NCBI GenBank assembly: GCA_029580855.1
Contig: JAKPQH010000189.1
Coordinates: 62,001 to 126,000 of the forward strand
Origin: a bacterium
Lineage (GTDB): Bacteria; Methylomirabilota; Methylomirabilia; Methylomirabilales; 2-02-FULL-66-22
Length of the DNA: 64,000 bases
Reading direction: 5' to 3'
Of this stretch, positions 1-26,750 are shown one piece after another (the stretch's first letter is position 1; each line of letters opens with the position of its first letter). The notes beneath the pieces were generated by a model that searched no databases, was not told the origin of the DNA, and worked only from the letters and a program-made list of their open reading frames with translations. Both the position numbers and the translations under genes were made by a program.

Positions 1-618
1 CGCGGCGTCCGTCCGCGTCAGGATACGGACCCCCGCGTCCGTCAAACGACGCTGGAGGATAGCTGCCGCCTCCTGGTCCAGCATCCGGGTGAGCAGCCGG
101 TCGGACGAGACCGCGATCGTCACCGAGACCCGGAGCTTGAGCAGCGCGTGGACCGTGAGGAGGCAGATGAGCCCGCCCCCCAGGATGACCGCATGTCGCA
201 CCCTCGGCAGTTCGTTGCGGATCCGCAGCGCATCGGCCATCGTCTTGAGCGCGGACACCCCAGGCATGGCGATCCCCTCGACGTTCGGGACCGCGGCCTT
301 GGACCCGGTGGCCACGAGGAGCCGATCGAAGGACAGACGGGACCCGTCGTCCAGCTCCAGGGCGTCGGCGCCAATCCCCACGGCCCGGCGGCCCAGGAGC
401 AGCCGCGCGCGCATCCGCTCGGCATAGCCGGCGGGTCGAAGCGACAGGTCGAGCCGCTCGCCGCTGACCAGATAGGGGAGCAGCACCCGCGAATACGCCG
501 GGATCGCCTCGTCGGCCACCAGCGTGACGGGGGATGTGTTATCCACGCGCCGCACCGCCTCCAGGGCCGCGAGACCGGCCGCGCTGTTACCGACGATGAC
601 GATGCGACGCTGCGACAC
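1..618 (-). CDS. FAD-dependent pyridine nucleotide-disulphide oxidoreductase, C-terminus cut by window edge (AorC-like?)
   Basis: Open frame from GTG at 618 to the window edge, absent from the ORF track; N-terminus reads (M)SQRRIVIVGNSAAGLAALEAVRRVD..., a GxGxxG-like FAD motif. Confidence 0.8.
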   Translation of the reverse strand, partial: MSQRRIVIVGNSAAGLAALEAVRRVDNTSPVTLVADEAIPAYSRVLLPYLVSGERLDLSLRPAGYAERMRARLLLGRRAVGIGADALELDDGSRLSFDRLLVATGSKAAVPNVEGIAMPGVSALKTMADALRIRNELPRVRHAVILGGGLICLLTVHALLKLRVSVTIAVSSDRLLTRMLDQEAAAILQRRLTDAGVRILTRTDAA

Positions 619-911
619 CGCTACTCCTTATGCGGGGTGACCAGACGACTACTCTCTTGCGTCAGTATTTTGCGGACAAATTGAGGCCCTCGGGATCGCC
701 CCGAGCCCGCCGGGCCCGCGGGCCAGCCGGTTTCGGGACGCCGTGGCCGCCCTGGCCCCACACGGTGCAGACACGCCCCTTTCACGGCGCGACGCGCCCC
801 ACAGGGGCGGCGGCGCCGGAACAAGGCTGGCCGGTTCTCGACGAGGCCCCAGGCGGGCGAGGAGCGATCCCGAGGGCCGGTCGAATTGTTCGCGCAGTTC
901 TGATTCGGACA

Positions 912-1379
912 CTAACCTTTCGCCGCCTCCACGATCCTCCGCGCGAAATCCCGCCCCTTGGGCACATCCGCCAACTGCGACTCCCGGAACTCCAGGGCGT
1001 GCGGCGTGCAGAAGCGCACGCACTCCGGATCGCCGTCGCAGGTATCGCACTTGGCGATCACCCCCGCCGCGGTGTCGAACGCGATCACGCCGAACGGACA
1101 GCCCAGCATGCACATGCGGCAGCCGATGCAGGCCTCCGGCACGAACCGCACCAGGCCGTCCCCCTGGACGAGGGCGCCCGCCGGACACACCTTGACGCAG
1201 GGCGCCGAGGCGCACTGGAAACACGCCAGGGGGACGTATTTGAACTCCTCGGCAAAGACGTGGATCCGGATACGGCTTTTGGACGGGGCAAAGGCGCCGG
1301 TCTTCACGAGCGAGCAGGCCAGCTCGCACATCCGGCAGTTGGTGCACTTGGTATGGTCCACGACGATCATGCGACTCAT
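912..1379 (-). CDS. 4Fe-4S ferredoxin-type subunit of aldehyde ferredoxin oxidoreductase
   Basis: 155 aa with several CxxCxxC clusters (CTNCRMCELAC, CIGCRMCMLGCPFG); start overlaps the AOR stop by ATGA. Confidence 0.88.
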   Translation of the reverse strand: MSRMIVVDHTKCTNCRMCELACSLVKTGAFAPSKSRIRIHVFAEEFKYVPLACFQCASAPCVKVCPAGALVQGDGLVRFVPEACIGCRMCMLGCPFGVIAFDTAAGVIAKCDTCDGDPECVRFCTPHALEFRESQLADVPKGRDFARRIVEAAKG

Positions 1380-3295
1380 CGGCCCTCTCCTTTGCCCGCC
1401 AGCTGTCCGACCACATCCGCCAGCCCCAGCTCCGTGAGTTTCGCCTCGGTGGGTGCGCCCGTTTCGCTCCAGCCGCGCAGCCGGTAGTACTCCTGGAGCG
1501 CGGCCTGGATGTCGCGATTGCCGACGACCTGTTCCCGCGACGCGCCGCCGCGCAGCCGCCGGGCCAGCTTGGCCGGCAGGCGGTCGTCGGCCGCGCCGCC
1601 GCTCTCCCGCACCGTGAAGACGCGTGCCAGATTATAGGCACGCTCGCCGATCGCCATCTCCTCCGCCAGGGTGAGATCGCTCCAGCCGGTCGCGGCGGCG
1701 AGCATCCCGGTGATCTCCTCGGTGTTCCGGATCCCGCCGACCGTCAGGCTCATAAAGGAGCACAGCGGCACGGTGTTGATAAACGACGTGTAGTCCTCCG
1801 CCAGGCGCACCGCCCGGGGCTTTCCCTCCAGGGTGAAGCGGTCCATGGCCTCCGTCACGCCGAGTTCGGGCCAGGCGTTGGGCACGGCGAGCGACGGGTC
1901 GTGAAACCCCTCCATGTGGTCCGCGCCGCGGGGCGCCGTCGCGTACGACAGGGCGAGCCCCTTCTTGCCCCGGGCCTCGTGCATCCCGAGCTCCAGCCCC
2001 TTGACCTCCACGGCGAGGTCCGACGCCCCGCGCCCCAGGACCGCCGCCGCCCGGCGCGCTCCCTCGGCGAGGAGATCACCGATCCCCTCGCGCCTGGCGA
2101 TCAGGTCCAGCAGTCGGACCATCGTCGGCGCGTCGCCCCAGGGCAGCGGGAAGCCGATCTCGCGCTCGGTCAGCAATCCCTTCTCAAAACACTCCATGGC
2201 GAACGCGATGGCCGAGCCCGCGCTGATGGTATCCAGGCCGTAGGCGTTGCAGCGCTGGTTCAGCAGCGCGATGGCCTCCAGATCGCGGTTCTCGCAGAGC
2301 GAGCCGAAGGAGGCCACGGTCTCGTACTCGGGCCCGCCGTATTCCGGCCGCACCCCGCCGAACGGCCCGCCCGGGACCCGCACGACGCGCGTGCAGCCCA
2401 CGGGGCACGACTGACAGGCGCGATGCCCGATGAGGATCGTGTTCTTCATGGCCGTGCCGCTGATCCGGTCGGCGTGCTCCCAGGTGCCGGTCTCCCAGTT
2501 CCGCGTCGGCAGAATCCCCATGCTGGAGAGATCCTCGACGCCGCCCGCGGTCCCCAGCGCGCCGGCGCTGGTGGGGCTGTCGCCCAGCCACGGGTGCTTC
2601 CGGATCTTGGCAAGGTCGGCGAGCGCATACTCCCGGAACTTCTTCGGGTCGGCCAGCGTGACCCGGCCGGTCCCGCGGATGGCGATGGCCTTCAGATTCT
2701 TCGCCCCCATCACGGCGCCCAAGCCGGTGCGGCCCGCCGCCCGGTCCGTATCGTTCATGATACAGGCGTACCGCACCCGCTTCTCCCCGGCCAGGCCGGT
2801 GCTGATGATCCGCGTCTCGGAGTCGCCCAGTTCCCTCTTGATCGTCTCCTCGACCTCGAGCGTTCCCCGCCCGGCCAGGTGCCTGGCCGGGCGGATCTCG
2901 ACACGGTCGTTGACGATCGATAGGTAGACCAGCTCCGCGGCCGCGCCCTGTACGACGATGCCGTCGTAGCCGGCGTACTTCAACTCGTGCGCCACGAAGC
3001 CGCCGGTGTAGGCCTCGCCGAAGCCGTCGGTGGCGGGCGATTTCCCCGCGACCACGAACCGGCCCGATCCCGGTGCGTACGTGCCCGTCAGCGGACCGGT
3101 CGCAAAGACCAGCCGGTTCGCCGGCCCGAAGGGATCGCACCCCGGGGGGGTCTCGTCCAGCAGGATGCGCGCGGCCATCCCCCGTCCACCGACGTACCGG
3201 CGCGCGCGCATCGCGTCCAGCGGTTCGACCCAGCTCTTGCCGCTGTCCAGATCCACCCTCAGCCATTGTCCCGCATACCCGTGCATGGCCCCCAC
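1376..3295 (-). CDS. Aldehyde:ferredoxin oxidoreductase family, tungsten/molybdopterin enzyme (start may be ATG 3286)
   Basis: 639 aa; MHGYAGQWLRVDLDSGK..., GGRGMAARIL, CQSCPVGCTR, typical AOR N- and C-terminal domains. Confidence 0.93.
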   Translation of the reverse strand: MGAMHGYAGQWLRVDLDSGKSWVEPLDAMRARRYVGGRGMAARILLDETPPGCDPFGPANRLVFATGPLTGTYAPGSGRFVVAGKSPATDGFGEAYTGGFVAHELKYAGYDGIVVQGAAAELVYLSIVNDRVEIRPARHLAGRGTLEVEETIKRELGDSETRIISTGLAGEKRVRYACIMNDTDRAAGRTGLGAVMGAKNLKAIAIRGTGRVTLADPKKFREYALADLAKIRKHPWLGDSPTSAGALGTAGGVEDLSSMGILPTRNWETGTWEHADRISGTAMKNTILIGHRACQSCPVGCTRVVRVPGGPFGGVRPEYGGPEYETVASFGSLCENRDLEAIALLNQRCNAYGLDTISAGSAIAFAMECFEKGLLTEREIGFPLPWGDAPTMVRLLDLIARREGIGDLLAEGARRAAAVLGRGASDLAVEVKGLELGMHEARGKKGLALSYATAPRGADHMEGFHDPSLAVPNAWPELGVTEAMDRFTLEGKPRAVRLAEDYTSFINTVPLCSFMSLTVGGIRNTEEITGMLAAATGWSDLTLAEEMAIGERAYNLARVFTVRESGGAADDRLPAKLARRLRGGASREQVVGNRDIQAALQEYYRLRGWSETGAPTEAKLTELGLADVVGQLAGKGEGR

Positions 3296-3354
3296 CTTTC
3301 TCTATCCGCTCGCCTATCCCATGGCGGTCATTCTACCGAAACCCATGGCGCCGA

Positions 3355-3374
3355 CAACACGGAACACCGTGTTG
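3355..3374. promoter_or_regulatory. Perfect 8-bp inverted repeat CAACACGG-aaca-CCGTGTTG
   Basis: Read directly, in the gap between the HdrB-like gene and AOR; operator or attenuator possible. Confidence 0.4.
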
Positions 3375-3441
3375 TGCTGGACGCCGGTCAAGCCCCCGAT
3401 GGGTATCCCGGGTGCCCGCGGCGCCAAACGAACCGGACGCA

Positions 3442-4248
3442 TTACACGTCATCGTCCAGCCCCAACGCAGCCGGGCTGACCCCGAGCGCCAGCCCGAGCA
3501 CCTGGGGGTAGAGTATCACGCGCAACCCCTCGGGGGCGGCCGGGGCGAGCTGATCCTGACACCAGGGACAGGCCGTGCAGAGCCAGCCCGCGCCGGCGTC
3601 CCGCGCGTCGGCAAGCTTCGCGGTGCGCAGACGATCCGCCAGCACCGGGCTGCCGGCAGCAATGGGCGCGCCGCAGCATTCGAGGCGCCGCGGCCACTCC
3701 ACGGTCCGTGCCCCCGCGGCGGCCAGCAGGCGCTCGAAGACCGTCGGGGCGTGGGGGTTGTCCAGCGCGACCACGTCGCTCGGACGCAGGGCGTGGCAGC
3801 CGTAGTGGGCCGCCACCCTGCGATCGCCTTGCGGCTTCTTCACCCGCGCCGCGATCGCCTCCGGCCCGATTGCCTTTGCCAGCAGGTCGAGCAGGTGATG
3901 GACGCCGGCCGAGGGCTCGAGGGCGAGACCTTCCTCGGCGAGCGCCGCGGCGACGAAGGTCCGCGCCGCCGGGTCGCCCGCAAGGAGGTGCTGTGCGAAC
4001 CGGAGGCTCCCGTAGCAGCACTGGCACAGCGTCAGCACCTCGAGCCGGCGCGCCGCCGCCAGCGCTAGGTTGCGCGCCGCGAGCAGCAGGTAGGCGTCGA
4101 GGCGCAGGCTGCGCTGCGGATAGCCGCAGCAGCCGAAGTCGAGCCCAACCAGCTCCACGCCCAGCCTCGCCAGCACCGCGCGCGCCGAGGTCTCGTAGGC
4201 CGGCACGGCCGCCGGGATCTTGCAGCCGACGAACAGCGCGACTCTCAT
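3442..4248 (-). CDS. HdrB-like CCG-domain protein (heterodisulfide reductase subunit B / GlpC C-terminal type)
   Basis: ATG 4248 gives MRVALFVGCKIPAAVPAYETSA...GCCGYPQRS...LCQCCYG...ECCGAPI...CTACPWCQ, two CCG motifs; the longer ORF-track start (810 aa) is out-of-frame antisense extension. Confidence 0.87.
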   Translation of the reverse strand: MRVALFVGCKIPAAVPAYETSARAVLARLGVELVGLDFGCCGYPQRSLRLDAYLLLAARNLALAAARRLEVLTLCQCCYGSLRFAQHLLAGDPAARTFVAAALAEEGLALEPSAGVHHLLDLLAKAIGPEAIAARVKKPQGDRRVAAHYGCHALRPSDVVALDNPHAPTVFERLLAAAGARTVEWPRRLECCGAPIAAGSPVLADRLRTAKLADARDAGAGWLCTACPWCQDQLAPAAPEGLRVILYPQVLGLALGVSPAALGLDDDV

Positions 4249-5933
4249 GTCGCCCCGTGTCCCTGAAGGGCGGCCTGCGTCGGACGCGGGAGCGCGCCCA
4301 GGCGTTCGTAGCCGCGGTTTCTGAGCTCGTAGAGGACCTCGGTGACGCGGATGCCGGCGGGGCAGTGCTCCTGACACTGGTAGCAGGTCGCGCAGTCCCA
4401 GACCATGCGCGAGCCCACCGCGAGATCCGCGAGACCGAGGCGGAGGAGGTTCATCACCTTCTGCGGCGTGGCATCCACCCCGCTCACCCGATCGGAGTGG
4501 GCCACCACCGGGCAGACGTTGGTGCAGGTCTGGCACTGCACGCACGCCGAGTAGGTATGGCGGTCGGCGGTGAGCGACGTGTAGCGCGGCAGCGCCGAGC
4601 GGGCGGGCGCCGGGGCCGCGGCCAGCCGATCGGCCCACACCGCGGCGGCGGTCGCCTTCACCCACTCCGGGGCCGGCGGCTCGCCCCGCCGGCGGAGCGC
4701 CGCCTGGCCGGCCGACCACAGGTCGTCGAGCCGGAGCCCCAGCGGACAGCCCGCCGTGCAGCGGCCGCAGTCGCTGCAGGCGTAGACGCCCTCGGCGAGA
4801 CGGGCGTACCCCGAGCCGCGGTCGTGCCCGCCGCGCGCCACGGCCCGCAGGGCGTCCAGTTTGGCGGCGGGCAGTACCGTGGCGTTGGCCAGCAGGGACG
4901 CCAGCGGCGCCACGGAGCAGCGCTCGTCGCAGAGCCCGCAGCGGACACAGGCGTCGAGCGCCAGGGTGCGCCGCGTCCGTCGATTCGGATCCGCCGGCGG
5001 CACGGTTCCGGCCCCGGCGAGCAGCGCCACGGGTGCGGACACCACGTGGAAGGCGCGCCCGAATGGGAGGTAGGCGACGGCCAGCACGCAGAGCAGTTGA
5101 TGCAGCCGCAGCAGCCACACCTCCGCCCCCCGGGAGGCGAGACCCGGGGCGATGCCGCCGAGGACGCGGGACAGCGACCAGGACACCGCGGCGGCCTGCG
5201 GGCGGGCATGACACGCGGCGCACGCCGCCTGGTGGACCGCCTCGCCCGCGGCCAGCTGCGCGGGACCCGGCGCCGCGGTCGGCGGCGGGAAGACGACACC
5301 GTACTCCGCACCCCAGTAGGCCCGCAGCGCCGCCGCCTCGGCGTCGCTCACGCCGGCGTAGTCCCGCAGCATCCGCTCGAAGGCTGGCGCCGATGTGATC
5401 TTGACCGCGCCCAGGACAAAGCCGCTCACGACGATGCCCAGCACGATGACCACGAAGAACGGATCGCGCCGCCGCGGCACAGGCAGGCGTCCCCGTGCGG
5501 CGCGGCGCCGCCCGCTGCCCAGGGCAACGCCGAGGAGGACCAGGAACCCCAACAGATCCCGCAGCCAGAGCCACGGGTTGAGGGTCGGCATGTAATCGGC
5601 TGCGATCCGGACCGCGACCACATCGCCGAGCGCGTGGAGACAGACGAGGCCTGTGAAGCCGACGAACAGCAGGAAGTGCGCTGCCCCGCGGACCGGATCC
5701 CGCGTCCAGAGGCGGCGCTGACCGAGCACGTCGAGGAGGAGGGCCGAGAACGCGCGCCGGGCGCGCTTCCCGTGGGGGCCGTGCGCCAGACTCGCCAGCA
5801 AGGCGCCGGCGCGCTCGCGCGGGGACGACGGGGCGTCGGACAGGTCGCGGCGCAGCCACCCCGCCATGCGCCACAGGCCCCCCGCCGCGGCGGCCGCCGA
5901 GGCGGCGGTGACGGCCCAGCCGAAGCCCGTCAC
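4245..5933 (-). CDS. Membrane cytochrome b / single heme c / iron-sulfur (GlpC/HdrC-like) fusion protein
   Basis: GTG 5933 overlaps upstream stop; hydrophobic N-half, CAACH heme motif, then CVRCGLCDERC, CSDCGRCTAGCP, CVQCQTCTNVCP and CATCYQCQEHCP clusters. Confidence 0.82.
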   Translation of the reverse strand: MTGFGWAVTAASAAAAAGGLWRMAGWLRRDLSDAPSSPRERAGALLASLAHGPHGKRARRAFSALLLDVLGQRRLWTRDPVRGAAHFLLFVGFTGLVCLHALGDVVAVRIAADYMPTLNPWLWLRDLLGFLVLLGVALGSGRRRAARGRLPVPRRRDPFFVVIVLGIVVSGFVLGAVKITSAPAFERMLRDYAGVSDAEAAALRAYWGAEYGVVFPPPTAAPGPAQLAAGEAVHQAACAACHARPQAAAVSWSLSRVLGGIAPGLASRGAEVWLLRLHQLLCVLAVAYLPFGRAFHVVSAPVALLAGAGTVPPADPNRRTRRTLALDACVRCGLCDERCSVAPLASLLANATVLPAAKLDALRAVARGGHDRGSGYARLAEGVYACSDCGRCTAGCPLGLRLDDLWSAGQAALRRRGEPPAPEWVKATAAAVWADRLAAAPAPARSALPRYTSLTADRHTYSACVQCQTCTNVCPVVAHSDRVSGVDATPQKVMNLLRLGLADLAVGSRMVWDCATCYQCQEHCPAGIRVTEVLYELRNRGYERLGALPRPTQAALQGHGAT

Positions 5934-7219
5934 GAGACGCTCCGCGCAGGGCCGAGCTCGTCCGCGAGACGCGCGACCGCCGCGGCGGCCGTGCCGACGG
6001 CCAGCCCGGCCCCGCATTTCATCCGCGCCCAGTCGTGGTGCGCGAGGATGGTGCCCACCGCGAAGAGTCGCGGGTGCACCACGGCGCCGCGGCCGTCGCA
6101 GGCGCGAAACCCGTCGTCCGTCTCGACCCCGGCGCGGTTGAGCGCGTGACCCCGCGGATCGAAGAGGTCGGTCCGGTGCCAGTCGGCGCGCGTCGCCGGC
6201 TGCGCGACGTGCAGGTCCAGCAGCGGCTCGCGCACCCGCGCGCGGTCTGCGGTGAGCCCCTGCCCCATGAACCGGCCCGTCGCCAGGATCACGGCGCGGG
6301 CGCGGAGCGCCACGGGGGCCGGCGTTGCGGCGACGGAGAGCGCGAACTCGTCGCCCATCCGCTGGACGGCGACCACCCGCCCGTGCACCCGCCGGTCTAC
6401 CCCGCGCGCCGCCACCGCCCGCTCCAGCGCGTTCTTCAGCCGGAGGCCCGGCACCGATGTGGGCATGGTCGGCACCTCGAAGATCGGCACGCCCAGCGCC
6501 TCGGTCAAGTCCGCGGCGGCGCGGGCGCTCCGCGTGATCCCGAGCACCGCCGGCAGACCCACGGCGCGCGCGTCGCCGAGGTGCGGCCGGATGAGGTCCG
6601 CCAGCCGCTCGCGCGTCGCCCGGTCCTCGAGCGCCAGCGCGATGTGGGCGGCGTAAACTTCCCCGGCGACCCCGGGGGCCGGAAACGTGAGCCGCAGGGT
6701 ACGCAGGTGAGGCCAGCGCCCCCCGACGCCGGCCGCGAGGGCCTTGGCGCTGTACTCGCGCAGCCCGTCGAAATCCACCAAGAGGCAGGGCACCCCCGCG
6801 GCCAGAGCCGCGGCGCCGGGCTGCATCGTCCGCGGCAGGCAGTAGGTCGATTTCACGGTGCCGACGCCGGTGAGCACCTGGTGGTTGCGCTCCCCGGGCG
6901 CCGTGTAGGCCAGCCCCGCCTCGTCCAGCGTCGCCGCCAGCTCGCCGAACGCCGCGCGCACCTGGGCCGCCGCGAGCTTCGTGTACGGATGGTCGGGCAG
7001 GTCGCGGCGCAGCGCCTCAAAGCCGGCCCAGGGGTCGATCCAACCCCGCGCCTCCGCCATCGGGTGAACCCCCAGCAGATCGAGAAGCCCGCTGGCGAAC
7101 AGGAGCGCCCCGGCGTTGCCCACCTGTACCACGCGCAAACCCCGGTTGGCGGCGAACACGGCCGCACTCATCCCCGCCAGCCCCGCGCCGACGACGGCGA
7201 CGTCGTGCGTCGCGCTCAT
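5930..7219 (-). CDS. glpB: Anaerobic glycerol-3-phosphate dehydrogenase subunit B
   Basis: MSATHDVAVVGAGLAGMSAAVFAANRGLRVVQV..., GlpB-like FAD protein, ATGA overlap with glpA. Confidence 0.85.
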   Translation of the reverse strand: MSATHDVAVVGAGLAGMSAAVFAANRGLRVVQVGNAGALLFASGLLDLLGVHPMAEARGWIDPWAGFEALRRDLPDHPYTKLAAAQVRAAFGELAATLDEAGLAYTAPGERNHQVLTGVGTVKSTYCLPRTMQPGAAALAAGVPCLLVDFDGLREYSAKALAAGVGGRWPHLRTLRLTFPAPGVAGEVYAAHIALALEDRATRERLADLIRPHLGDARAVGLPAVLGITRSARAAADLTEALGVPIFEVPTMPTSVPGLRLKNALERAVAARGVDRRVHGRVVAVQRMGDEFALSVAATPAPVALRARAVILATGRFMGQGLTADRARVREPLLDLHVAQPATRADWHRTDLFDPRGHALNRAGVETDDGFRACDGRGAVVHPRLFAVGTILAHHDWARMKCGAGLAVGTAAAAVARLADELGPARSVS

Positions 7220-8781
7220 GGCCGCGCCGCCCTCCGCTCGGTCAGCTCGCAGCCGTGCAGGCCGCAGTGGATCGCCTCGGCCAACTCGGCCTGCGCCAGC
7301 TGCTCGCCCCACAGGACCGCGTGCTGACCGCGCCAGCGCTCTCGGAAGAACTCGCGCTGCTCGCGCAGGCCCTCCGCGCCCCGGAGCGCCCCCCGCTCGT
7401 AGAGGTGCGCGATGACCCGCACGGCGCAGAACGTGCCCTGGCAGGCCCCCTTGCCGAGGCGGCTGCGCAGGGCGAGGTCGGCGAGGGCCCCCTCGTGTCC
7501 GTCGGACTCCAGCGCCGCCGCCACGCTGTCCAGGGCGCGCCGCGAAACCATCTCGCACTCGCACAGGAGCGCGTCGTCGGGGGCCTGCGCGCGCATCCAG
7601 GCCTGCGGCCCGAAGCCGGGTTCGGTCCACTCGCCCCCGGCGGTCGGGGTCAGCGGCTCGCTGCGGGTGCGGCACGGCGCCGACACGCCGAGGCGCGCGC
7701 AGACCAGGTCGGCCGTGCGCTCGGCCATCAGGCGGCAGGTGGTGAGCTTGCCCCCGGTGATGGTGACAAGATTGGCCACCCCCTCGCGCCCATGATCCAG
7801 GAGGGCGAAGCCGCGACTGACGCCGCGCCCGTCCACGGCGGGCCCGGCGGCGACCAGCGGTCGCACCCCGGCATAGGCGCGGATGCAGCGCGCCTGCTGC
7901 AACGCCGGCAGCAGCGCCGCGGCTCCCTCGACAATGAGGTCGACTTCGGGCACCGTCGGCCGCACATCCTCCAGATCGTCGATCGTCAGCGAGGTCGTCC
8001 CCGCGATCGAGACCGTGCCGCCGGGCATGATGATGTCCGCATCGCCGGGCGGCCGCAGGCGGTTCAGGACGCGATGGGCCAGGCGCGTGTGGGTGACGAC
8101 GAGGGTGCCCTTGGAATAGAGCATCGGCACGTCGACCCCGGCGAGCTGCGCCACGCCCCGCGCCCACGCCCCCGCGGCGTTGACGACAACATCCGCGCCG
8201 AGCGTGCGCTCCTCGCCGGTCCGGCTCTGGCGCAGGCGCACGGCGGCAATCCTGCCGCCGTCGCGCTCGAAGCCGACCACCCCCGTGCGGCGCACGAGCC
8301 GCGCGCCGTACCGCTCCGCCTGGACCATCATCTGGAGCGAGAGCCCGAACGGGTCGATCGAGGCATCCGGAACCAGGTAGGCGGCGATGGCGCGGGGCGA
8401 GAGGGACGGCTCCATCTCGCGCGCCTCGTTCAACGGGACCGGGCGGACGCCGATCCCGCTCGTCGCGCACAGACCGGGGAAGTCGGCGATGTAGCGCTCG
8501 TCGTCGCCGGCCACGGCCACGAACAGGCCGCCCGTGTCCTCGATGCACTGTGGCGCCAGCCGCTTCAACAGCTCGCCCTCGACCCGACACTCGGCCGCCG
8601 CCTCTGCGTCGCGCGCGACATACCGGGCCCCGCTGTGCAGCAGACCGTGATTGCGCCCGGAGGCGCCCGCGTTCAGGTCATCGCGCTCGACCAGAACGCA
8701 GGCGACGCCCCGCAGCGCCAGGTCCCGCGCCACCGCGGTCCCCGTCGCACCGCCGCCGATGATGAGAACCTGGGTATCCAT
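7216..8781 (-). CDS. glpA: Anaerobic glycerol-3-phosphate dehydrogenase subunit A
   Basis: 521 aa; MDTQVLIIGGGATGTAVARDLALRGVACVLVERDDLNAGASGRNHGLLHSGARYV..., C-terminal BFD-like Fe-S region (CECE...GACQGTFCAVR). Confidence 0.92.
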   Translation of the reverse strand: MDTQVLIIGGGATGTAVARDLALRGVACVLVERDDLNAGASGRNHGLLHSGARYVARDAEAAAECRVEGELLKRLAPQCIEDTGGLFVAVAGDDERYIADFPGLCATSGIGVRPVPLNEAREMEPSLSPRAIAAYLVPDASIDPFGLSLQMMVQAERYGARLVRRTGVVGFERDGGRIAAVRLRQSRTGEERTLGADVVVNAAGAWARGVAQLAGVDVPMLYSKGTLVVTHTRLAHRVLNRLRPPGDADIIMPGGTVSIAGTTSLTIDDLEDVRPTVPEVDLIVEGAAALLPALQQARCIRAYAGVRPLVAAGPAVDGRGVSRGFALLDHGREGVANLVTITGGKLTTCRLMAERTADLVCARLGVSAPCRTRSEPLTPTAGGEWTEPGFGPQAWMRAQAPDDALLCECEMVSRRALDSVAAALESDGHEGALADLALRSRLGKGACQGTFCAVRVIAHLYERGALRGAEGLREQREFFRERWRGQHAVLWGEQLAQAELAEAIHCGLHGCELTERRAARP

Positions 8782-8823
8782 CGCGGGAGATGGGCCTTTG
8801 TCAGCAGCCTTCCACGGGATGAA

Positions 8824-9816
8824 TCACCGCGGGGCGTCGCCCATGCGGTACTCGTGCGTCAGCTCGTCCAGGCGCGTCTTGAGCGCCGGATCGAGGGCCA
8901 CGTCAACGGCGGCGAGGCTCGCCCGCAGCTGCCCCGGCCGGCTTGCACCCACCAGGGGCGCCGTGATCGCCGGGTGGGCCAGCACCCAGGCCAGGGCCAG
9001 GGTGGCCGGTTCCAACCCGTGTTCCTTGGCCAGCGCGACGACCGCATCCACGGTGGTGAACTCGCGGTCTTTCCAGTATCGCTCGACGTACGTGGTGGCG
9101 GCCGTTCCCAGCGTAAAGCGCGAGCCGTCCGGCGGCGGCGCGCTGCGGGTGTGTTTGCCGGTCAGGAGGCCTCCGGCGAGCGGGTTGTAGGGGATGACCG
9201 CCAGCCCTTCCTCCAGACACAGCGGCAGCAGTTCCCGCTCGATCTGGCGGAACAAGAGGTTGTAGCGCGGCTGGACGGACACCAGCCGGACGCACCCCAG
9301 CGCCTCGCTCCGACCCAGGGCCCGCGCGACGCGGTAGGCCTGGTAGTTGGATACGCCGATATAACGCGCCTTGCCGCTCCGCACCACCGCATCGAAGGCC
9401 TCGACCGTCTCGTCCAGCGGCGTGTCGGGATCGAACTGGTGCGCCTGGTAGAGGTCCACGTAGTCGGTGCCGAGACGCGCGAGGGATGCGTCGACCGCGG
9501 CGAGCACGTGCTTGCGCGACGTGCCCCGCTGCCAGGGCGCCGGACCCATCTGGCCGCAGCATTTCGTCGCCACGATGAACCGGTCTCGCTTCCCCCGCAG
9601 CCAGCGGCCCAGGATCTCCTCGGTGCGGCCCCGAGTTTCCGGTGTGCCGCCCAGCGGGTACACGTCCGCGGTGTCAAGGAAAGTGATGCCCCCGTCCGCG
9701 GCGGCGTCCAGGATCGCGTGCGATGTGCGCTCGTCGCACTGCAGGCCGAACGTCATGGTGCCGAGGCAGAGTCGCGAGACCTGGAGCCCGGTGCGGCCGA
9801 AGCGAATGTGTTTCAT
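8824..9816 (-). CDS. Aldo/keto reductase
   Basis: ATG 9816: MKHIRFGRTGLQVSRLCLGTMTFG...; FLDTADVYPLG, VDLYQAHQFDPDTPLDETVEA. Confidence 0.92.
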   Translation of the reverse strand: MKHIRFGRTGLQVSRLCLGTMTFGLQCDERTSHAILDAAADGGITFLDTADVYPLGGTPETRGRTEEILGRWLRGKRDRFIVATKCCGQMGPAPWQRGTSRKHVLAAVDASLARLGTDYVDLYQAHQFDPDTPLDETVEAFDAVVRSGKARYIGVSNYQAYRVARALGRSEALGCVRLVSVQPRYNLLFRQIERELLPLCLEEGLAVIPYNPLAGGLLTGKHTRSAPPPDGSRFTLGTAATTYVERYWKDREFTTVDAVVALAKEHGLEPATLALAWVLAHPAITAPLVGASRPGQLRASLAAVDVALDPALKTRLDELTHEYRMGDAPR

Positions 9817-10249
9817 GGACGGTCCCTCCTCGGGATACGCGGTCGCGGGTTTGCGTGAGGGACGTGCCGGCGTCACGCGGAACCCCACGGTCGTTTCACC
9901 ACCAACCCCGACGCTCGGTCTGCACGCGGCCACTCCCAGGCAGGCACCGCAGAGGACGGCATCACAGCGAACCGGATACCGCGGACGGCCGCCGCTTCAC
10001 GAGGGGCGGATCGAACCTCTTGTGAATGGGCAGAGCCCGTTGTCCGTGGGTGTCTTGGCGGTGCCGGCTGCCCCGCAGCCGTCTGGCCGGCAGTATCCGG
10101 CGGACCCGCGCGGGCTGTCAAGGCGAAAGGCGCGCATGTCAGGCATCCCGCAGCTGACCCTGGCCCAAGAAGAGCGCTCAACGGCCGGGGGGGGCGAGGC
10201 GGCTTGGCGGTGCACGGGTCTCGCTTCGGGGCAGCCTCCGGTCCGCGCG

Positions 10250-17558: not shown

Positions 17559-19079
17559 CTACACCGCGGCGGCCCGATGCCCGAGAGATCGAACGGTATA
17601 CCGGAGGAGCGGCAGGAGCAGGAAGCCCAGCGTGGCCACGAGGAAGACCAGCGACACCGGCCGCTCGACGAAAATGCCGAAACCGCCGTGAGAGATCATG
17701 AGACTTTGGCGAAAAGCAACCTCCAGCTTCGGACCAAGGACCAAGGCCAAGAGCAGGGGCGCCCCCTCGTAGGCCCATTTACGCATGAGATAGCCGAGGG
17801 CCCCGCAGCCCAGCATGACCCAGAGATCGAGCATGAAGTTGTTCACACTGTACATCCCGGTGAGACAGAACAGCATGACCAGCGGCAGCAACACCTTCTT
17901 CGGGATGCGCAGGATATTGGCGAAGAGCGGCACAAAGGGAAGGTTGAGCAGGAGTAGGATGACGTTGCCGATGTACATGCTGGCCACAACGCCCCAGAAG
18001 AGCTGCGGATGTTCCGCGATCATGGCAGGTCCGGGGTTGACGCCGTGGATGAGCAGCGCGCCCAGAAGAATGGCCGTGGGCGGTGCGAAGGGAATCCCCA
18101 GCACGAAGAGCGGGATGAAGGCGGCCTGACAGGCGGCATTGTTCGCCGATTCCGGACCCGCGACACCCTCGATGGCACCATGCCCGAACGTCTCCGGGTG
18201 ATCGGAGATCCGCTTCTCCACCATATAGGAAGCGTAGGTGGCGATGACCGGTGCCGGGCCCGGCACCAGGCCCACGCCAAAACCAATACCTGTCCCGCGC
18301 AGGATGGCGCCCACGGACTGTTTGAGATCCCGGAGACTCGGATAGAGGTCGCGGAGGCGCGGCACCAGGACTCGCTGCTCCAGGATCTCGACGGGTTGCT
18401 CCGCATTCATCAAGACCTCGCCGATGCCGAACAGGCCGATCGCGACGGCGACGAACTCGATGCCGCCCAGGAGCGACACATATCCGAATGTGAAGCGGGG
18501 ATTGCCGGACACGGGATCCAGCCCGATGGTCCCGATGATGAGGCCCACCACGGCCATCATCAGTGACTTGATCAGCGAGCCGCCCGTCACGTTGCTCAGG
18601 ACCACAAAGCCGAAGACCATCAGGGAGAAGAACTCGGGCGGCCCGAACGCCAGCGCCGCCTCAGCGAGCGGCGGGGCGAGAAACACCAGCCCGAGGATGG
18701 CCAGCCCGCCCGCAACAAAAGAGCCGATGGCGCAGATGGCCAGGGCCGGCCCGGCCCGGCCTTTTTTCGCCATCTGGTAGCCGTCTATGCAGGTCATGAC
18801 CGAGGCGGTCTCGCCGGGAACGTTGAGCAGGATCGATGTCGTCGATCCCCCGTACATCGCTCCGTAATAGATCCCGGCCAGCATGATGATGGCCGAGGTG
18901 GCGTTCAGATTGAAGGTCGCCGGGATGAGCAGCGCGATCCCTGCGATCGGGCCGAGGCCGGGGAGCACGCCGACCAGGGTCCCGACGATAGCCCCCGCCA
19001 GACAGTAAAACAGATTCTCGGACGTCGTCGCCACGCCGAATCCGGTCGCCAGGTACTGCAGCGAGCCCAGCGCGTCCAT
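17559..19079 (-). CDS. TTT family large permease (TctA)
   Basis: 506 aa; GTLVGVLPGLGPIAGIALLIPATFNL, YYGAMYGGSTTSILLNVPGE. Confidence 0.96.
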   Translation of the reverse strand: MDALGSLQYLATGFGVATTSENLFYCLAGAIVGTLVGVLPGLGPIAGIALLIPATFNLNATSAIIMLAGIYYGAMYGGSTTSILLNVPGETASVMTCIDGYQMAKKGRAGPALAICAIGSFVAGGLAILGLVFLAPPLAEAALAFGPPEFFSLMVFGFVVLSNVTGGSLIKSLMMAVVGLIIGTIGLDPVSGNPRFTFGYVSLLGGIEFVAVAIGLFGIGEVLMNAEQPVEILEQRVLVPRLRDLYPSLRDLKQSVGAILRGTGIGFGVGLVPGPAPVIATYASYMVEKRISDHPETFGHGAIEGVAGPESANNAACQAAFIPLFVLGIPFAPPTAILLGALLIHGVNPGPAMIAEHPQLFWGVVASMYIGNVILLLLNLPFVPLFANILRIPKKVLLPLVMLFCLTGMYSVNNFMLDLWVMLGCGALGYLMRKWAYEGAPLLLALVLGPKLEVAFRQSLMISHGGFGIFVERPVSLVFLVATLGFLLLPLLRYTVRSLGHRAAAV

Positions 19080-19091
19080 TACGCGTCGCCC

Positions 19092-19538
19092 CTACAGACC
19101 GAAACGTCCGGTTGGCAGCGGGATCTGCAGCCAGCGGACAAAGAGCGCGTACGACGCTCCCGCCGCGCAGACCGCGATGACCACGACATGCGCCCAGCGC
19201 CGAACACCCAGAACGTACAAGAGGAGCGCCATGAGCACGAAAGCGGCGAGTGGGTACCCGACGACTGTGAGCGATCCCGTGGAGAGCACCGTGGCCACCA
19301 GGAAGAGGAGAACCCGTTGCCAGGAGCCATGCGGCGCCGCGTCCGCGCTGTCATCGGGAAGGTCGCTGCGCCACCGCCACGACTGGGCAAGGTGGATCCC
19401 CGCCAGGAGTATGAGAAGGAGGCCGAGGTAGAAGGGGAAGAAGCCCGGGCCCGGAGCGCGGAGGGTCCCCACCCGAATTTGGAAAGACAGCCCGGCGGTA
19501 ACCGCTCCGAACAGCAGGAGAAGGAGGGCGGGGATCAT
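19092..19538 (-). CDS. TTT family small permease (TctB)
   Basis: 148 aa; RAPGPGFFPFYLGLLLILLAG, four hydrophobic segments. Confidence 0.9.
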   Translation of the reverse strand: MIPALLLLLFGAVTAGLSFQIRVGTLRAPGPGFFPFYLGLLLILLAGIHLAQSWRWRSDLPDDSADAAPHGSWQRVLLFLVATVLSTGSLTVVGYPLAAFVLMALLLYVLGVRRWAHVVVIAVCAAGASYALFVRWLQIPLPTGRFGL

Positions 19539-19839
19539 ATCGGCTTCACGGACTTCAAGCGAATCGCCAGGTCGCGCGTGTCACGTATGGAAATGTCGCG
19601 TTACACGCTATCTCGTACCGCTGGACATGTCAACTGCCAATTCCGTGTCGGGCGGTGATCGCATCCGGACGGGACGCCGGGAGTTTTTCGCGCGTCTCCC
19701 GCTCCGTCGCCGGCCCCCGCGTCATCCGGGGACCCGAAAGCCGCCGGGCAGCCCACGCCCGGGAAAGCTCTTGACGCCGCCTGGGCCATGGTTTAGAAAC
19801 GACGCAGTCCGTGCGAATTTATCCAGCGGAGGTGCCCGG

Positions 19840-21282
19840 ATGGAACACTCTGTGCCTCTTTCCACACAGCTCGCCGACCGGTTGGCCGCGTTCCGTCTCA
19901 AGGATGTCCCGGGGGAAGTCCTCGCCCACGCCAAGCTGATGCTGCTCGACACGGTGGGCGCCATGCTGGCGGCGTCCAACCCCAAGTACTCCGCGACGCG
20001 CATTCTGGTGGACTTCGCGAAGCGGCTGGGAGGTCGGCCCGAGTCCAGCCTGGTGGGCCAGAGGTTCAAGACGTCCTGCGTCAATGCGTCGCTCGTCAAC
20101 GGGACGCTAGGCTATTACTGCGACATCGAGCCGCATCACGTGGGGGGCATCCTGCACGCCCCGGCCGCCATGGTACCGGCCGGCCTGGCGGTCGCCGAGA
20201 AGGAACGCGCGGGCGGGAGGCAGTTCCTGGAGGCCATGATCCTCGGCATCGAGGTCACCTGCCGGGTGAGCTACGCCCTGAACCCCGTGGCCCTCTACAA
20301 CCGCGGCTTTCACCCCAGCGCCATCTGCGGGGCGTTCGGCGCCGCCGCGGCCGCGGGGAAGCTTTTCCGGCTCAACCCCAAGAAGTTCGGCATCGCCCTG
20401 GGGCTCGCCATGCAACAGGCATCGGGCCTGCTGGCGTGGGCGTCCGATCATACCGAGAACTCGCGGCCGTTCAATCCAGGCCTGGCCGCTCGAAACGGGA
20501 CGACTGCCGCGTATCTCGCCTCCCTCGGGTTCGGCGGCCCGCCGACCCCCTTCGAAGGAAAATACGACGCGTACACCGCCTTCTCCGGCGAGCGCCATCC
20601 CGACGCCCTGCTGGGCGAATGGGGAAAACACTTCCACACACCGGAGTTCGCCTACAAGCTCTACTCCAGCTGCTCCTTCACGCATCCCGGGCTGGACGCT
20701 CTGCTGGGCATCGCGCGCCAGCACACACTCACGTCCGCCGATGTGCAGACCATCGTCCTTCGCTTCCCCAAGTCCGGCGCCCACATGATCGACAACAACG
20801 AGCTGAAGTCCCACTGCGCCCAGTACATTCTTCCCGTCGGGCTCGTTTTCGGCGGCGTGACGATCGACGACATCCTCGAAGACCGGCTCCGGCACCCAGA
20901 GGTCGCGCGCCTCCGCGCCGCCACCCGCATGGTGGCGGACCCCGAGCTGGACGGCGGTTGGCCCGAGGTGTACGCGTCCATCGTCGAGGTGACCACAACC
21001 GACGGTCGGCGCCTCTCCGCGCGCGTAGATCATGCCAAGGGTACAAAGGAAAATCCGCTGACGGCCGACGAGATTCGGCAGAAGTACCTCAAGTTGGCCA
21101 CCACGGTCACCACGCGCGCCCATGCCGAGCGTATCGCCGAGGCGGTCCAGGGGATCGACCGCGCGCCGGATGTCGTACGTCTCGGCGGGTTGTTTCGAAC
21201 CCTGAACGCGAGAAAGTCCACCGGACGGAACACAAGGGCCGGAACGAGTCGGTCAGGCAGCACGAGCGAGGTCGTACGCTAG
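19840..21282 (+). CDS. MmgE/PrpD family protein
   Basis: MEHSVPLSTQLADRLAAFRLKDVPGEVLAHAKLMLLDTVGAMLAASNPKY; QQASGLLAWASDHTENSRPFNPGLAARNG. Confidence 0.92.
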   Translation: MEHSVPLSTQLADRLAAFRLKDVPGEVLAHAKLMLLDTVGAMLAASNPKYSATRILVDFAKRLGGRPESSLVGQRFKTSCVNASLVNGTLGYYCDIEPHHVGGILHAPAAMVPAGLAVAEKERAGGRQFLEAMILGIEVTCRVSYALNPVALYNRGFHPSAICGAFGAAAAAGKLFRLNPKKFGIALGLAMQQASGLLAWASDHTENSRPFNPGLAARNGTTAAYLASLGFGGPPTPFEGKYDAYTAFSGERHPDALLGEWGKHFHTPEFAYKLYSSCSFTHPGLDALLGIARQHTLTSADVQTIVLRFPKSGAHMIDNNELKSHCAQYILPVGLVFGGVTIDDILEDRLRHPEVARLRAATRMVADPELDGGWPEVYASIVEVTTTDGRRLSARVDHAKGTKENPLTADEIRQKYLKLATTVTTRAHAERIAEAVQGIDRAPDVVRLGGLFRTLNARKSTGRNTRAGTSRSGSTSEVVR

Positions 21283-21448
21283 GAATCCAGCGCGGGGCGT
21301 TCTTGGAGAACTCGACGGACCGCATCTCACCTGATCGTGCCCGCCCATAACCCGATCAGAAAGGCCGTGGATCTTTCCGAAAAGCGCCTTGGAGGCCCGC
21401 GTGTGGGCGCCAAGAAGTACTGGTCACGAACAAACCGCAGAGTCAAAC

Positions 21449-21572
21449 GTCTTCCGGAGTCCCGTGGGGTTCATCGGGTTCGAAAACCCGTCGGGGGGCT
21501 TTACGGCCCTCCAGGGCGGCTCGGTTGATGTCTGTACGAACGACGGTCCCGTCGTGTACGGGTTTCTCGAGA
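21449..21572 (+). pseudogene. Possible remnant of a family 3 (amino-acid) solute-binding protein
   Basis: PVGFIGFENPSGGFTALQGGSVDVCTNDGPVVYGFLE resembles the ALxxGxVDAxxxDxPV segment; no flanking domain. Confidence 0.4.
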
Positions 21573-21834
21573 TCACGCCTGACCCTGCGAAGGGGCGGGC
21601 TTTTGATTCGGGCGTGGGCGCCTCGCCCCACGCGTTTCCGATCCGCCAGAACAGTTCCAGCTTCGCCATGTTCGTCAACCCGGTTCAGGTCAAACCCATT
21701 TGGGTTTGTTCCATCCTGGCGGCGCTCTATCTTGTGTTGTGTTTCACGTTCAGCCGGTGCGTGCATCGAATCGAGCGGAGAACGGCAAAGCTGTTGCCAT
21801 CTGATTCCGCTCTCTCATCCGCGCACGCGGAGCG

Positions 21835-23001
21835 ATGGCCCGTTTGGGGTCGGAGGACGCCGTGAGGATCACTCGAATCGAAACCCGCATCGTCGAGATC
21901 CCGGTCAAAGCTCCCTACGTATTCTCGCACGGCACGTTGAGGGTCTTCAGCAATGTCTTGGTGTGGATCCACACGGACGAGGGAATCACCGGGGTCGGCG
22001 AATCCTCGTTCGTCCCCGGCGGAGGAGTCTCCGAGGAGACGCCCGAAAGCACCAAGCCGATGATCGACCGCTATCTGGCCCCCCAGGTGGTAGGCGAGGA
22101 CCCCTTCGACATCGAGCGTATCCACCGGAAGATGGACAGCGCGGTCCCAAGAAACCTGATCGCAAAATGCGGCATCGACCTGGCGCTCTGGGACCTCATG
22201 GGGAAGGCCGTGAGGCAGCCGGCCTGCACGCTTCTGGGCGGGATCGTCGATTCGCGGATTCTCTGCACCTACACGCTGAGCATCGACACTCCGGAACGGA
22301 TGGCGGAGCAAGCATCGCTCAGGAAGAGCCAGCGGTACAAAACGCTCGTCGTCAAGATCGGCCCAGACCCGGAGACCGACATCCAGCGGCTCAAATTAGT
22401 GCGAGAGGCCGTCGGCGACGACGTAAATCTGCGCCTGGACGCCAATGAGGCGTACTGGCCGGATCAGGCCATCGGGATCATCCGCAGGATGGAAAAATAC
22501 CACCCGGAGTTCGTCGAGGAGCCGGTCAAACGATGGGACCTCGATGGGATGGCCAAGGTGGCCCGTATGGTCGGCACGCCTATCAGCTCCGATGAGAGCA
22601 ATACGTCTCTCGACAGCGTCCTGCAGATCATCCGCAAGCGCGCGGCGGGGATCATCAACATCAAGATCTCGAAAAACGGCGGGCTGTATCGTTCAAAAAA
22701 GATCGCCGCGGTTGCTGAAGCGGCCGGCATCCCCTGCATCGTGGGAGGAGCCAATACCTACGAGATCGGACGACAGGCCTGCCGGCATTTTGCCGTCTCG
22801 ACGGCACAGGCGCAAATGGGGATGGGATCCGAAGGGTGTGCGCCGGCGTCGCAATCCAAGATCGACGACGTGACCACCCGGGTGCTTGCCTACGAGGACG
22901 TGACCGCCGGGAACGGATACGTGGGACTGATGGAAGGGCCAGGCCTGGGCGTGGAGATCGACGCGGAAAAGGTGCGGAAGTACGCGGCCGTGTCGTCCTG
23001 A
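21835..23001 (+). CDS. Mandelate racemase/muconate-lactonizing enzyme family (enolase superfamily); alternative GTG start 21862
   Basis: RITRIETRIVEIPVKAPYVFSHGTL; LVVKIGPDPETD, LRLDANEAYWPDQAI, EEPVKRWD, SSDESNTS. Confidence 0.92.
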   Translation: MARLGSEDAVRITRIETRIVEIPVKAPYVFSHGTLRVFSNVLVWIHTDEGITGVGESSFVPGGGVSEETPESTKPMIDRYLAPQVVGEDPFDIERIHRKMDSAVPRNLIAKCGIDLALWDLMGKAVRQPACTLLGGIVDSRILCTYTLSIDTPERMAEQASLRKSQRYKTLVVKIGPDPETDIQRLKLVREAVGDDVNLRLDANEAYWPDQAIGIIRRMEKYHPEFVEEPVKRWDLDGMAKVARMVGTPISSDESNTSLDSVLQIIRKRAAGIINIKISKNGGLYRSKKIAAVAEAAGIPCIVGGANTYEIGRQACRHFAVSTAQAQMGMGSEGCAPASQSKIDDVTTRVLAYEDVTAGNGYVGLMEGPGLGVEIDAEKVRKYAAVSS

Positions 23002-23049
23002 GGGGGCGACTCGCCACGGGGCGCGGAATGCGCGGGCATCCGCATACGG

Positions 23050-23092
23050 AAAAAGCCGGGACCCCCGGGCGTCAGCTCCCGAGGCACCCGGC
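23050..23092 (-). terminator. Rho-independent terminator of the NIPSNAP operon
   Basis: GCCGGG...CCCGGC stem with nested CCCGGG/CCCGAG pairing, T-tract on minus strand (aaaaa at 23050-23054). Confidence 0.7.
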
Positions 23093-23125
23093 TCATGGGT
23101 TTCAGCGCAACCGTCTACGGTCGAC

Positions 23126-23440
23126 TTATTTCAGCGACGAGAACTCCGTCGGCGAGAGGATCTTGTTGCTCTGGCTGACGACGCAGGCGCGTAGGCGCGG
23201 GACGATCTCGGCGCGGCGCGGGTCCTTGAACCACACGCCCCACTTCGCCTGCCGCTCGTTGAGGTCGGTGAACGCCCACAGGTGGACGACCTCGTTCAGC
23301 GTCCCGATGTCGGTGGTCCAGAACCCGACCGGCTTGAGCCCGTGCTCGGCGAGCAGCGGCAGGAGCTTCGTCCGGATCAGATCCAGGTACTCCGCCATCC
23401 CGCCGACCGCCAGTTGATAGGTCCGCAGCTCGTAGATCAT
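23126..23440 (-). CDS. NIPSNAP family protein
   Basis: MIYELRTYQLAVGGMAEYLDLIRTKLLPLLAEHGLKPVGFWTTDIG. Confidence 0.9.
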   Translation of the reverse strand: MIYELRTYQLAVGGMAEYLDLIRTKLLPLLAEHGLKPVGFWTTDIGTLNEVVHLWAFTDLNERQAKWGVWFKDPRRAEIVPRLRACVVSQSNKILSPTEFSSLK

Positions 23441-23525
23441 CGTTCTCTCCTCGCTGGTTGTGTCGAGAGCGCACCCGCTGCAAGGGGTGCTGGGCATGCT
23501 CGTGGGGCTTGCCCGCTCGGCGGCG

Positions 23526-24560
23526 CTAGGCCCGTGGCTCGCTGAGTCCGATCTTTTCCGCGTAGGCTCGATCGACGGCTACTGTCTCGACCGGATTCCG
23601 CAATACGCCGATCCCCTCGATCTCGGATTCGATGACATCGCCGGGGAAGATGGGCCCCGCCATGGGGCTCGCGGTGGTGATGAGATCCCCCGGCTCCAGC
23701 GTCCAGAACGTTGAGACGAAAGCCACGATGTCGTCGAAGCGGAAAATCATGTTCGAGGTATTCGACTCCGCCTCGACCGTGCCGTTCCGCCGCCGCAGGA
23801 TCCGAAGGTTGTACAGGTCCTCGGGCATCTCGTCCGGCGTGACGATCCATGGCCCCATGGGGCCGTACGTGTCGATCGACTTGCCCCACGGCTGGTACTC
23901 CCGACTCGCCGCCTCCAGCGCCCGCCCCGTGATGTCGTGGAAGATCGTGTAGCCTGCGATGAACTCGTATGCGCGCTCCTTCGGCACCGCCTTGCACCGT
24001 TTGCCGATCACGCAGGCAAACTCGTACTCGTGATAGACCTCGCCGTACCCGTCGGGGATCCGGATGGGGTCGTCCGGCCCCACCACGCAGGACGGGGCCT
24101 TGAGAAACACCAGCGGCACGGCCGACTTGGCGAGACCGATGACCTGCCGATAATCTTCGTAGTTCACGCCGGTGCAAACGATCTTCGGCGGCCGCGGGAC
24201 GGGTGCGCGCAGCGGGAGCTGGCCCAGACCGAACACGGCGCCCGGCAGATCGTACTTGAGGTCGACGGCGTACTGCAGCGCGCGCCGGGCGGCGTCCATG
24301 GTCTCGTCGCCGCCCCGCAGGAAACCGAGCATGTCGGCCGGCAGCATGCGATCGGCCACGACCGCCGGTCCCTGGTCGCCCATCTCGGCCAGCTCGTCGA
24401 ACCGGCATCGGCGCGAGAGCTCCGGTTCCATCTTCGCCGGTTCCCTGCTCCCCATCTCCACCAACGCCGCCGTGAAGGCCGCATTCAAGTCGATCAGCCG
24501 TCCGTCCTGCACCGCGCCCACGCGGTCCCGCCCGCACAGATCGAAGGTGACGAGTTTCAT
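23526..24560 (-). CDS. Fumarylacetoacetate hydrolase family protein
   Basis: 344 aa; PPKIVCTGVNYEDYRQV, EYEFACVIGKRCKAVPKERAYEFIAGYTIFHDITGR. Confidence 0.93.
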   Translation of the reverse strand: MKLVTFDLCGRDRVGAVQDGRLIDLNAAFTAALVEMGSREPAKMEPELSRRCRFDELAEMGDQGPAVVADRMLPADMLGFLRGGDETMDAARRALQYAVDLKYDLPGAVFGLGQLPLRAPVPRPPKIVCTGVNYEDYRQVIGLAKSAVPLVFLKAPSCVVGPDDPIRIPDGYGEVYHEYEFACVIGKRCKAVPKERAYEFIAGYTIFHDITGRALEAASREYQPWGKSIDTYGPMGPWIVTPDEMPEDLYNLRILRRRNGTVEAESNTSNMIFRFDDIVAFVSTFWTLEPGDLITTASPMAGPIFPGDVIESEIEGIGVLRNPVETVAVDRAYAEKIGLSEPRA

Positions 24561-24654
24561 CCGAACTCCTATGTCGACGGGTCAAAGGGTCGATTGCTCA
24601 ACCGGTCGATTCGTCTCGGGCCGTCATTGGGCCTCCCCCGATTGACCAATCGAC

Positions 24655-26181: not shown

Positions 26182-26202
26182 GGGTCACGCTCTCAAACCC
26201 CG

Positions 26203-26664
26203 CTAACGGAACAGTCCGCGCGGGAGCGGCACGTTGAGGGCTCGATCGAAGACGAGATACGTCGCCACCGGAACGACCACGGAGAAGAGAATCAGCCGCA
26301 TCCACCGGCGCTCACCCAGCGCCACACAGAAGCCGAGCAGGTACGGAGCCGTTGCCGTCATGAAGCCCAAACGCTCTATGACGACCACGTAGACGCCGGT
26401 CAGGGCGGCGACCCACAGAACACGGGCCCGGTCTGCCCCCGCCAGCCGCTCCGGGAGGGTGAGAGAGCGGCCGGTCAACGCCTTGCCGAGAAGAACTAGC
26501 CCCGCCGCGAACAGCAACGCCGCCACCCCGCGCGGGATCCAGGCAGGATTGCCCAGGTCGGGCAGGATGGGCCAGCGGCCGGATTCCCAGAAAACATAGA
26601 CGCAGACGGGAATCAGAAAGAGTGCCGAGAGGATGTCGATCTTCTTCATTGAGACGTGCGACAT
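26203..26664 (-). CDS. TTT family small permease (TctB)
   Basis: MSHVSMKKIDILSALFLIPVCVYVFWESGRWPILPDLGNPAWIPRGVAALL. Confidence 0.88.
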   Translation of the reverse strand: MSHVSMKKIDILSALFLIPVCVYVFWESGRWPILPDLGNPAWIPRGVAALLFAAGLVLLGKALTGRSLTLPERLAGADRARVLWVAALTGVYVVVIERLGFMTATAPYLLGFCVALGERRWMRLILFSVVVPVATYLVFDRALNVPLPRGLFR

Positions 26665-26750
26665 GTGGACTCCATCCCCAGGCGATTGCGAAGCGCCCCG
26701 CGACCGACGGCCGCGGGGCGCCATCGGGCCGATCCAGAAAACAGGTCCTC

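Follow-up and report, generated by a model that had tools for sequence, protein, structure and literature searches.

Where do the electrons of a bacterial glycerol 3-phosphate (G3P) dehydrogenase go when glpA and glpB are not followed by a normal glpC? This question is raised by a cluster of four genes, glpA, glpB, p3, and p4, in a 64,000-nucleotide (nt) stretch of DNA from a bacterium of the phylum Methylomirabilota (contig JAKPQH010000189.1, positions 62,001 to 126,000; the whole stretch is called the window here, and all coordinates are window positions). We conclude that the locus is real and coherent and that this exact build is not found elsewhere among the genomes searched. Its products very probably form a membrane-anchored G3P dehydrogenase complex, and we favor, with modest confidence, a membrane-bound enzyme of the GlpAB-HdrF type with an outward exit through heme c.

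The genes glpA (7216..8781; 521 amino acids [aa]), glpB (5930..7219; 429 aa), p3 (4245..5933; 562 aa, with a GTG start), and p4 (3442..4248; 268 aa) are consecutive on the minus strand, and each junction overlaps by 4 nt (ATGA at 7216-7219, GTGA at 5930-5933, and ATGA at 4245-4248). These positions, which we re-derived, match exactly those given in a preliminary description of this DNA. The overlaps alone are ordinary operon structure; it is what p3 and p4 encode that is unusual. The domain matches of the encoded proteins far exceed chance expectation. A frameshift artifact, which had been named as a possible origin of the p3 fusion, is unlikely because p3 is a single open frame, its codon-position GC content is like that of its neighbors, and both of its halves match real families.

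GlpA, the flavin adenine dinucleotide (FAD) subunit, scores 557.3 bits with TIGR03377 (cut-off, 552.8), and GlpB, the second flavin subunit, scores 555.3 bits with its subfamily model NF003725 (cut-off, 345), which identifies them as the GlpA and GlpB equivalogs. Four C-terminal cysteines of GlpA (C407, C409, C447, and C452), invariant in comparison with the Halapricum and Vibrio proteins, fit the [2Fe-2S] pattern of the BFD type known from canonical GlpA. In contrast, no protein of the cluster passes a GlpC cut-off: p3 scores 55.5 (cut-off, 278) and 30.7 (cut-off, 279.9), and p4 scores 17.2 (cut-off, 278). The absence of a normal GlpC after GlpA and GlpB, as first described, is thus borne out by the curated models.

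The membrane subunit p3 and the exit of electrons

The p3 protein, predicted to be the membrane electron-transfer subunit, is a fusion. Residues 1 to ~440 are a cytochrome b plus dicluster of the EtfD/FadF/HdrF type and can be aligned with cytochrome-b/Fe-S/CCG proteins of one family (EtfD-like paralogs) that is found in other parts of the phylum. An HdrC-type dicluster makes up residues 455-540 (TIGR03290, 4e-16; Fer4_8, 3.6e-19; PDB 5odc_C, 1.5e-11). A profile built from p3 and seven of the EtfD-like paralogs matches mycobacterial EtfD (PDB 9ojn) with an E value of 3e-160, which is mostly due to the paralogs in the profile, and the residue mapping therefore weighs more than the score. Hydropathy gives about five hydrophobic segments, and hydropathy, charges, and mapping on EtfD and the paralogs together place the membrane part at 5025..5921 (minus strand), with transmembrane helices (TM) at residues 5-27 (TM1), 84-105 (TM2), 120-140 (TM3), 158-179 (TM4), and 269-303 (TM5). 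In the structure of EtfD from Mycobacterium smegmatis, [4Fe-4S] clusters lead to one heme b (H78/H241) next to menaquinone (PMC13083937). The corresponding residues of p3 are H86 and H296, which are conserved in all eight rows of the alignment, so that p3 has a five-helix cytochrome b with the histidine pair of EtfD.

Four CxxCxxCxxxC motifs (residues 329-339, 386-396, 464-474, and 514-524) follow the last helix. The first two form an EtfD-type [4Fe-4S] dicluster (C329-C339 and C386-C396; 4746..4949, minus strand), whose eight cysteines are invariant in the alignment of p3 with the paralogs and align with EtfD clusters D3/D4. The last two form the HdrC-type [4Fe-4S] dicluster (C464-C474 and C514-C524; 4362..4544, minus strand). 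There are no CCG domains in p3; those of the cluster reside in p4. The preliminary description of a ~560-aa protein with a hydrophobic half, a CxxCH site, and four Fe-S cysteine clusters is confirmed. Its suggestion of a NarI/DsrM-like cytochrome b was rejected, since both the NarI Pfam model and the DsrK model (21.3, compared with a cut-off of 400) fall below their cut-offs; the assignment is instead to the EtfD/FadF/HdrF type.

In three features, p3 differs from the EtfD-like proteins with which it was aligned. The first is H100 in TM2, 14 residues past H86; at this position, Tyr is found in EtfD, and Val, Ala, or a gap is found in the paralogs. A conserved histidine, H278, lies opposite H100 and would be its natural partner, so that a second heme b held by H100/H278 is possible. 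The second is A285, which occupies the position of the menaquinone contact Phe230 of EtfD and is Phe in all seven paralogs; H100 and A285 together would fit a second heme and an altered quinone site. The third is a heme c motif, CAACH (C238-C241-H242; residues 238-242; 5208..5222, minus strand), in an insert of ~75 aa that is missing from the seven paralogs and lies in the loop between TM4 and TM5 (within residues 180-268; nt 5130-5396). A CxxCH motif arises in just 1.5% of shuffles of p3. The loops at residues 28-83 and 141-157 each have a net charge of +7, and those at residues 106-119 and 180-268 each have a net charge of 0; by the positive-inside rule, the insert is predicted to be periplasmic, which is the side where c-type heme is attached.

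If the four proteins assemble and bind the cofactors that their motifs predict, the FAD of GlpA would oxidize cytoplasmic G3P to dihydroxyacetone phosphate (DHAP), and electrons would pass through GlpB to the C-terminal HdrC-type dicluster of p3 and to p4, which would stand in for GlpC. They would then move to the EtfD-type dicluster of p3 and on to heme b (H86/H296), and from there probably by way of the second heme b (H100/H278) across the membrane to the periplasmic heme c and on to a c-type carrier in the periplasm; menaquinone would be an alternative or additional acceptor. The path up to heme b is proposed because of the homology with the solved EtfD structure. The last step is proposed because of H100, A285, and the CxxCH motif, and whether electrons would leave by heme c is, on these grounds, evenly balanced.

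Several observations weigh against this scheme. The cytochrome c fold model PF13442 scores 16.6 bits on p3 (cut-off, 27), the insert has few residues for an entire cytochrome c fold, and no residue was recognized as the distal heme ligand. PF02665 (NarI) reaches 19.1 bits (cut-off, 22.9). Of the domains initially expected in p3, the searches with hidden Markov models thus recovered the HdrC-type dicluster but neither NarI nor a cytochrome c fold. A single-sequence AlphaFold model was poor (predicted local distance difference test [pLDDT], 44.6). In addition, no close homolog of p3 that could show H100 and the CxxCH motif to be conserved was found in the genomes searched.

The alternative that survives best is a plain G3P:menaquinone oxidoreductase, in which p3 acts like EtfD, electrons end on menaquinone at heme b, and the CxxCH insert is minor or nonfunctional. 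EtfD has the same heme b ligands along with bound menaquinone, and its menaquinone-contacting Phe85 is conserved in p3 as F93. Escherichia coli GlpABC is a quinone reductase, which also counts in favor of this alternative. However, the second contact, Phe230, is replaced by Ala in p3 although every paralog keeps Phe, and H100 and the CxxCH insert occur in p3 alone. We consider this alternative unlikely.

The HdrB-like subunit p4, the substrate of GlpA, and the remaining alternatives

The p4 protein is HdrB-like along almost its whole length (TIGR03288, 1.1e-50; PDB 5odc_B, 3.2e-39), although its TIGR03288 score of 172.5 bits is below the family cut-off of 345.15. It has two complete CCG motifs (C9/C40/C41/C75/C78 and C151/C191/C192/C227/C230), in agreement with the earlier placement of the CCG (HdrB) domain in a separate gene. 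Compared with 5odc_B, p4 keeps 10 of the 10 cysteines that bind the two noncubane [4Fe-4S] clusters of HdrB, including the bridging cysteines C81 and C234 (C78 and C230 in p4). The idea that p4 is a piece split off GlpC was rejected, as it scores 172.5 bits with the HdrB model and 17.2 with GlpC. Based on these assignments, equivalents of HdrC and HdrB (the C terminus of p3 and p4, respectively) are predicted to replace GlpC, with p3 joining them to a membrane base of the EtfD type.

The full set of cluster cysteines raises the question of whether p4 is a catalytic HdrB, with electrons exchanged among G3P, the membrane chain, and a disulfide in the cytoplasm, for example on a partner resembling DsrC or thioredoxin. 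At least one of the 10 cysteines is missing from each of the proteins compared, which were three GlpCs and an EtfD-like protein, and it is the noncubane clusters that act on the disulfide in Hdr. Nevertheless, p4 falls well short of the HdrB cut-off, neither a partner disulfide protein nor a coenzyme M/coenzyme B system was seen in the annotated parts of the window, and retained ligands are no proof of open catalytic clusters. A disulfide-coupled enzyme appears improbable.

An equally improbable alternative is that the GlpAB-like pair no longer uses G3P and draws the electrons that it feeds in from a different substrate, for example a dicarboxylate or some other sugar phosphate. Strittmatter et al. 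tie the glpAB-hdrF genes of Desulfobacterium autotrophicum to dicarboxylate degradation (PMC2702500). The genome that contains the window has two GlpD-type G3P dehydrogenase genes elsewhere (L031:1426-3138 and L032:1018-2691), so that the GlpAB complex would be an additional, third G3P dehydrogenase, and a glycerol kinase was not seen among the annotated open reading frames. On the other hand, GlpA scores above its equivalog cut-off, it can be aligned with structurally characterized G3P dehydrogenases, and the positions R53/Y54, R307, R323, and K345 are invariant in the GlpAs compared. Just upstream, 42 nt from glpA, is an aldo/keto reductase gene (8824..9822, minus strand; PF00248, 1e-76) whose product resembles L-glyceraldehyde-3-phosphate reductase with a score below the cut-off, which also argues against another substrate; by its spacing, this gene is possibly the first of the transcription unit.

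Least probable of all is a branched enzyme in which G3P oxidation would have two outlets. One would lead through two b hemes and heme c into the periplasm without involving the quinone pool, and the other to a cytoplasmic disulfide site on a catalytic HdrB; such an enzyme could split one electron pair or balance two pathways.

Distribution and genomic setting

Among the remaining 94 genomes of the phylum, searches with p3 gave no match at an E value of ≤1e-15, and among 388 genomes across the domain they gave, p3 itself aside, none at ≤1e-20; one of the p3 genome searches scored only three candidates per genome. Nothing was found with p3 in plasmids or with p3, GlpB, and GlpA in viral contigs. 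GlpB has no match in the rest of the phylum, and no protein exceeds the NF003725 cut-off in 195 genomes of the phylum of Anaeromyxobacter or in 400 of the phylum of genome G154.

We also examined 110 other GlpB loci, sorted by a simple motif rule from a sampling that was uneven and not aimed at the Desulfobacterota, the lineage in which a precedent is known. The third gene is canonical and GlpC-like in 69 of these loci. In 8 loci, GlpB is followed by a short dicluster gene, which in most cases has no CCG, a dicluster gene without a CC motif follows it in 3 (all from haloarchaea), and neither a GlpC-like nor a dicluster gene follows it in 29 (2 of them at a contig end); in the remaining locus, no glpB was recovered. 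A membrane Fe-S protein is the partner of GlpB in none of the 110, and the same four-gene order, for which a survey had been suggested, was found in none of the genomes searched. In several lineages, glpA and glpB are followed by a dicluster protein of 130 to 230 aa without CCG, which is a truncated GlpC-like third subunit (L050:6064-6486, from an Anaeromyxobacter metagenome-assembled genome, and L071, L079, L097, L099, and L101).

The contamination value of the source genome is 9.24%. Contamination was rejected as the source of the contig, and the region is taken to be native, because the flanks of the glp block have counterparts in a genome of the same genus, G006 (positions 1-3300, the AOR side, at 82 to 86% identity and 8813-9816 at 73 to 83%, with 83% given for the aldo/keto reductase; AOR, aldehyde ferredoxin oxidoreductase). 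The glp block itself has no counterpart there. In its place, an aldolase gene precedes the AOR gene of G006, and the aldo/keto reductase copy is on another contig. These comparisons suggest either that the block was gained in the lineage studied here or that it was lost in that of G006. Its GC content is 0.75 compared with 0.67, and this is not taken as proof of transfer because the excess is mostly in the first and second codon positions.

Downstream of p4, the AOR gene (1376-3295) starts after 146 nt; together with a gene for a HycB-like ferredoxin, it forms a pair (912-3295) that is 86% identical in G006. Between p4 and the AOR gene is a perfect 9-bp inverted repeat with a 4-nt spacer (ACAACACGG-AACA-CCGTGTTGT; 3354-3375), possibly an operator or a hairpin, which has no match at ≤4 mismatches in loci of other genomes. 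Farther away in the window are two tripartite tricarboxylate transporter sets (17559-28025; TctA at 17559 and 24655, TctB at 19092, and TctC at 26751) and a Dak1-domain gene of the dihydroxyacetone kinase type (47636-48637).

Comparison with known systems

The association of GlpAB with a membrane Hdr protein is not new, since a precedent in D. autotrophicum was published in 2009. Strain HRM2 of this species has three membrane Hdr proteins (HdrF), two of which are encoded in clusters with glpAB; one of these two, hdrF1, is divided between two genes, and electron transfer from GlpAB via HdrF into the membrane was proposed (Strittmatter et al. 2009, PMC2702500). Common to both systems are glpAB beside multi-TM membrane Hdr proteins and domains homologous to HdrC and HdrB. 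By its description, the D. autotrophicum HdrF has its TM, CCG, and HdrC regions together in proteins of larger size, with no heme c mentioned, whereas the cluster studied here has an EtfD-type core with an added HdrC dicluster, a separate HdrB gene, and the CxxCH insert. We did not find described in the literature an EtfD core and an extra HdrC dicluster in one chain, a separate and fully ligated HdrB, or the heme c insert with the extra histidine. The preliminary proposal of a membrane complex that moves electrons between G3P/DHAP and quinone or a periplasmic c-type carrier stands with respect to GlpAB, to the membrane Hdr-like module that would replace GlpC, and to a possible exit either way; it needs correction with respect to the type of cytochrome, and the arrangement as such has a precedent (PMC2702500).

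Like EtfD and FadF, p3 has a five-helix cytochrome b with the same histidine pair and a [4Fe-4S] dicluster after it, and unlike them it has no C-terminal CCG domain but a second HdrC dicluster, an extra histidine in TM2, Ala at the position of Phe230, and the heme c motif insert. The partner genes also differ, being etfAB for EtfD/FadF and glpAB for p3. Because the structure of EtfD is available, the changes in histidines, quinone site, and heme c motif yield concrete, testable predictions. Canonical GlpABC, as in E. coli and most of the GlpB loci examined, has the same GlpA and GlpB subunits in the same order, but its GlpC is one soluble protein with a dicluster and CCG domains, in the place of which p3 and p4 are found here. 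The HdrBC part of HdrABC (PDB 5odc) likewise combines an HdrC-like dicluster with an HdrB that has 10 cluster cysteines; in contrast, the cluster described here has no HdrA, its HdrC part shares one chain with a membrane cytochrome, and its scores are under the cut-offs of the HdrB and HdrC families.

According to the statement of a 2025 survey, glpA of bacteria is consistently accompanied by glpB and glpC (PMC11962113). The locus described here, D. autotrophicum, and the loci with short dicluster genes are exceptions to this statement, and the first of these suggests a route from cytoplasmic sugar-phosphate oxidation to periplasmic cytochromes. In the archaeal GlpA-SdhBCD and GlpA-CoxG arrangements, G3P dehydrogenase subunits have also recruited a different membrane or electron-transfer partner (PMC11962113). 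Unlike the cluster described here, these archaeal variants are without Hdr-type membrane partners; bacterial GlpAB can probably be attached to a membrane base of the EtfD/Hdr type.

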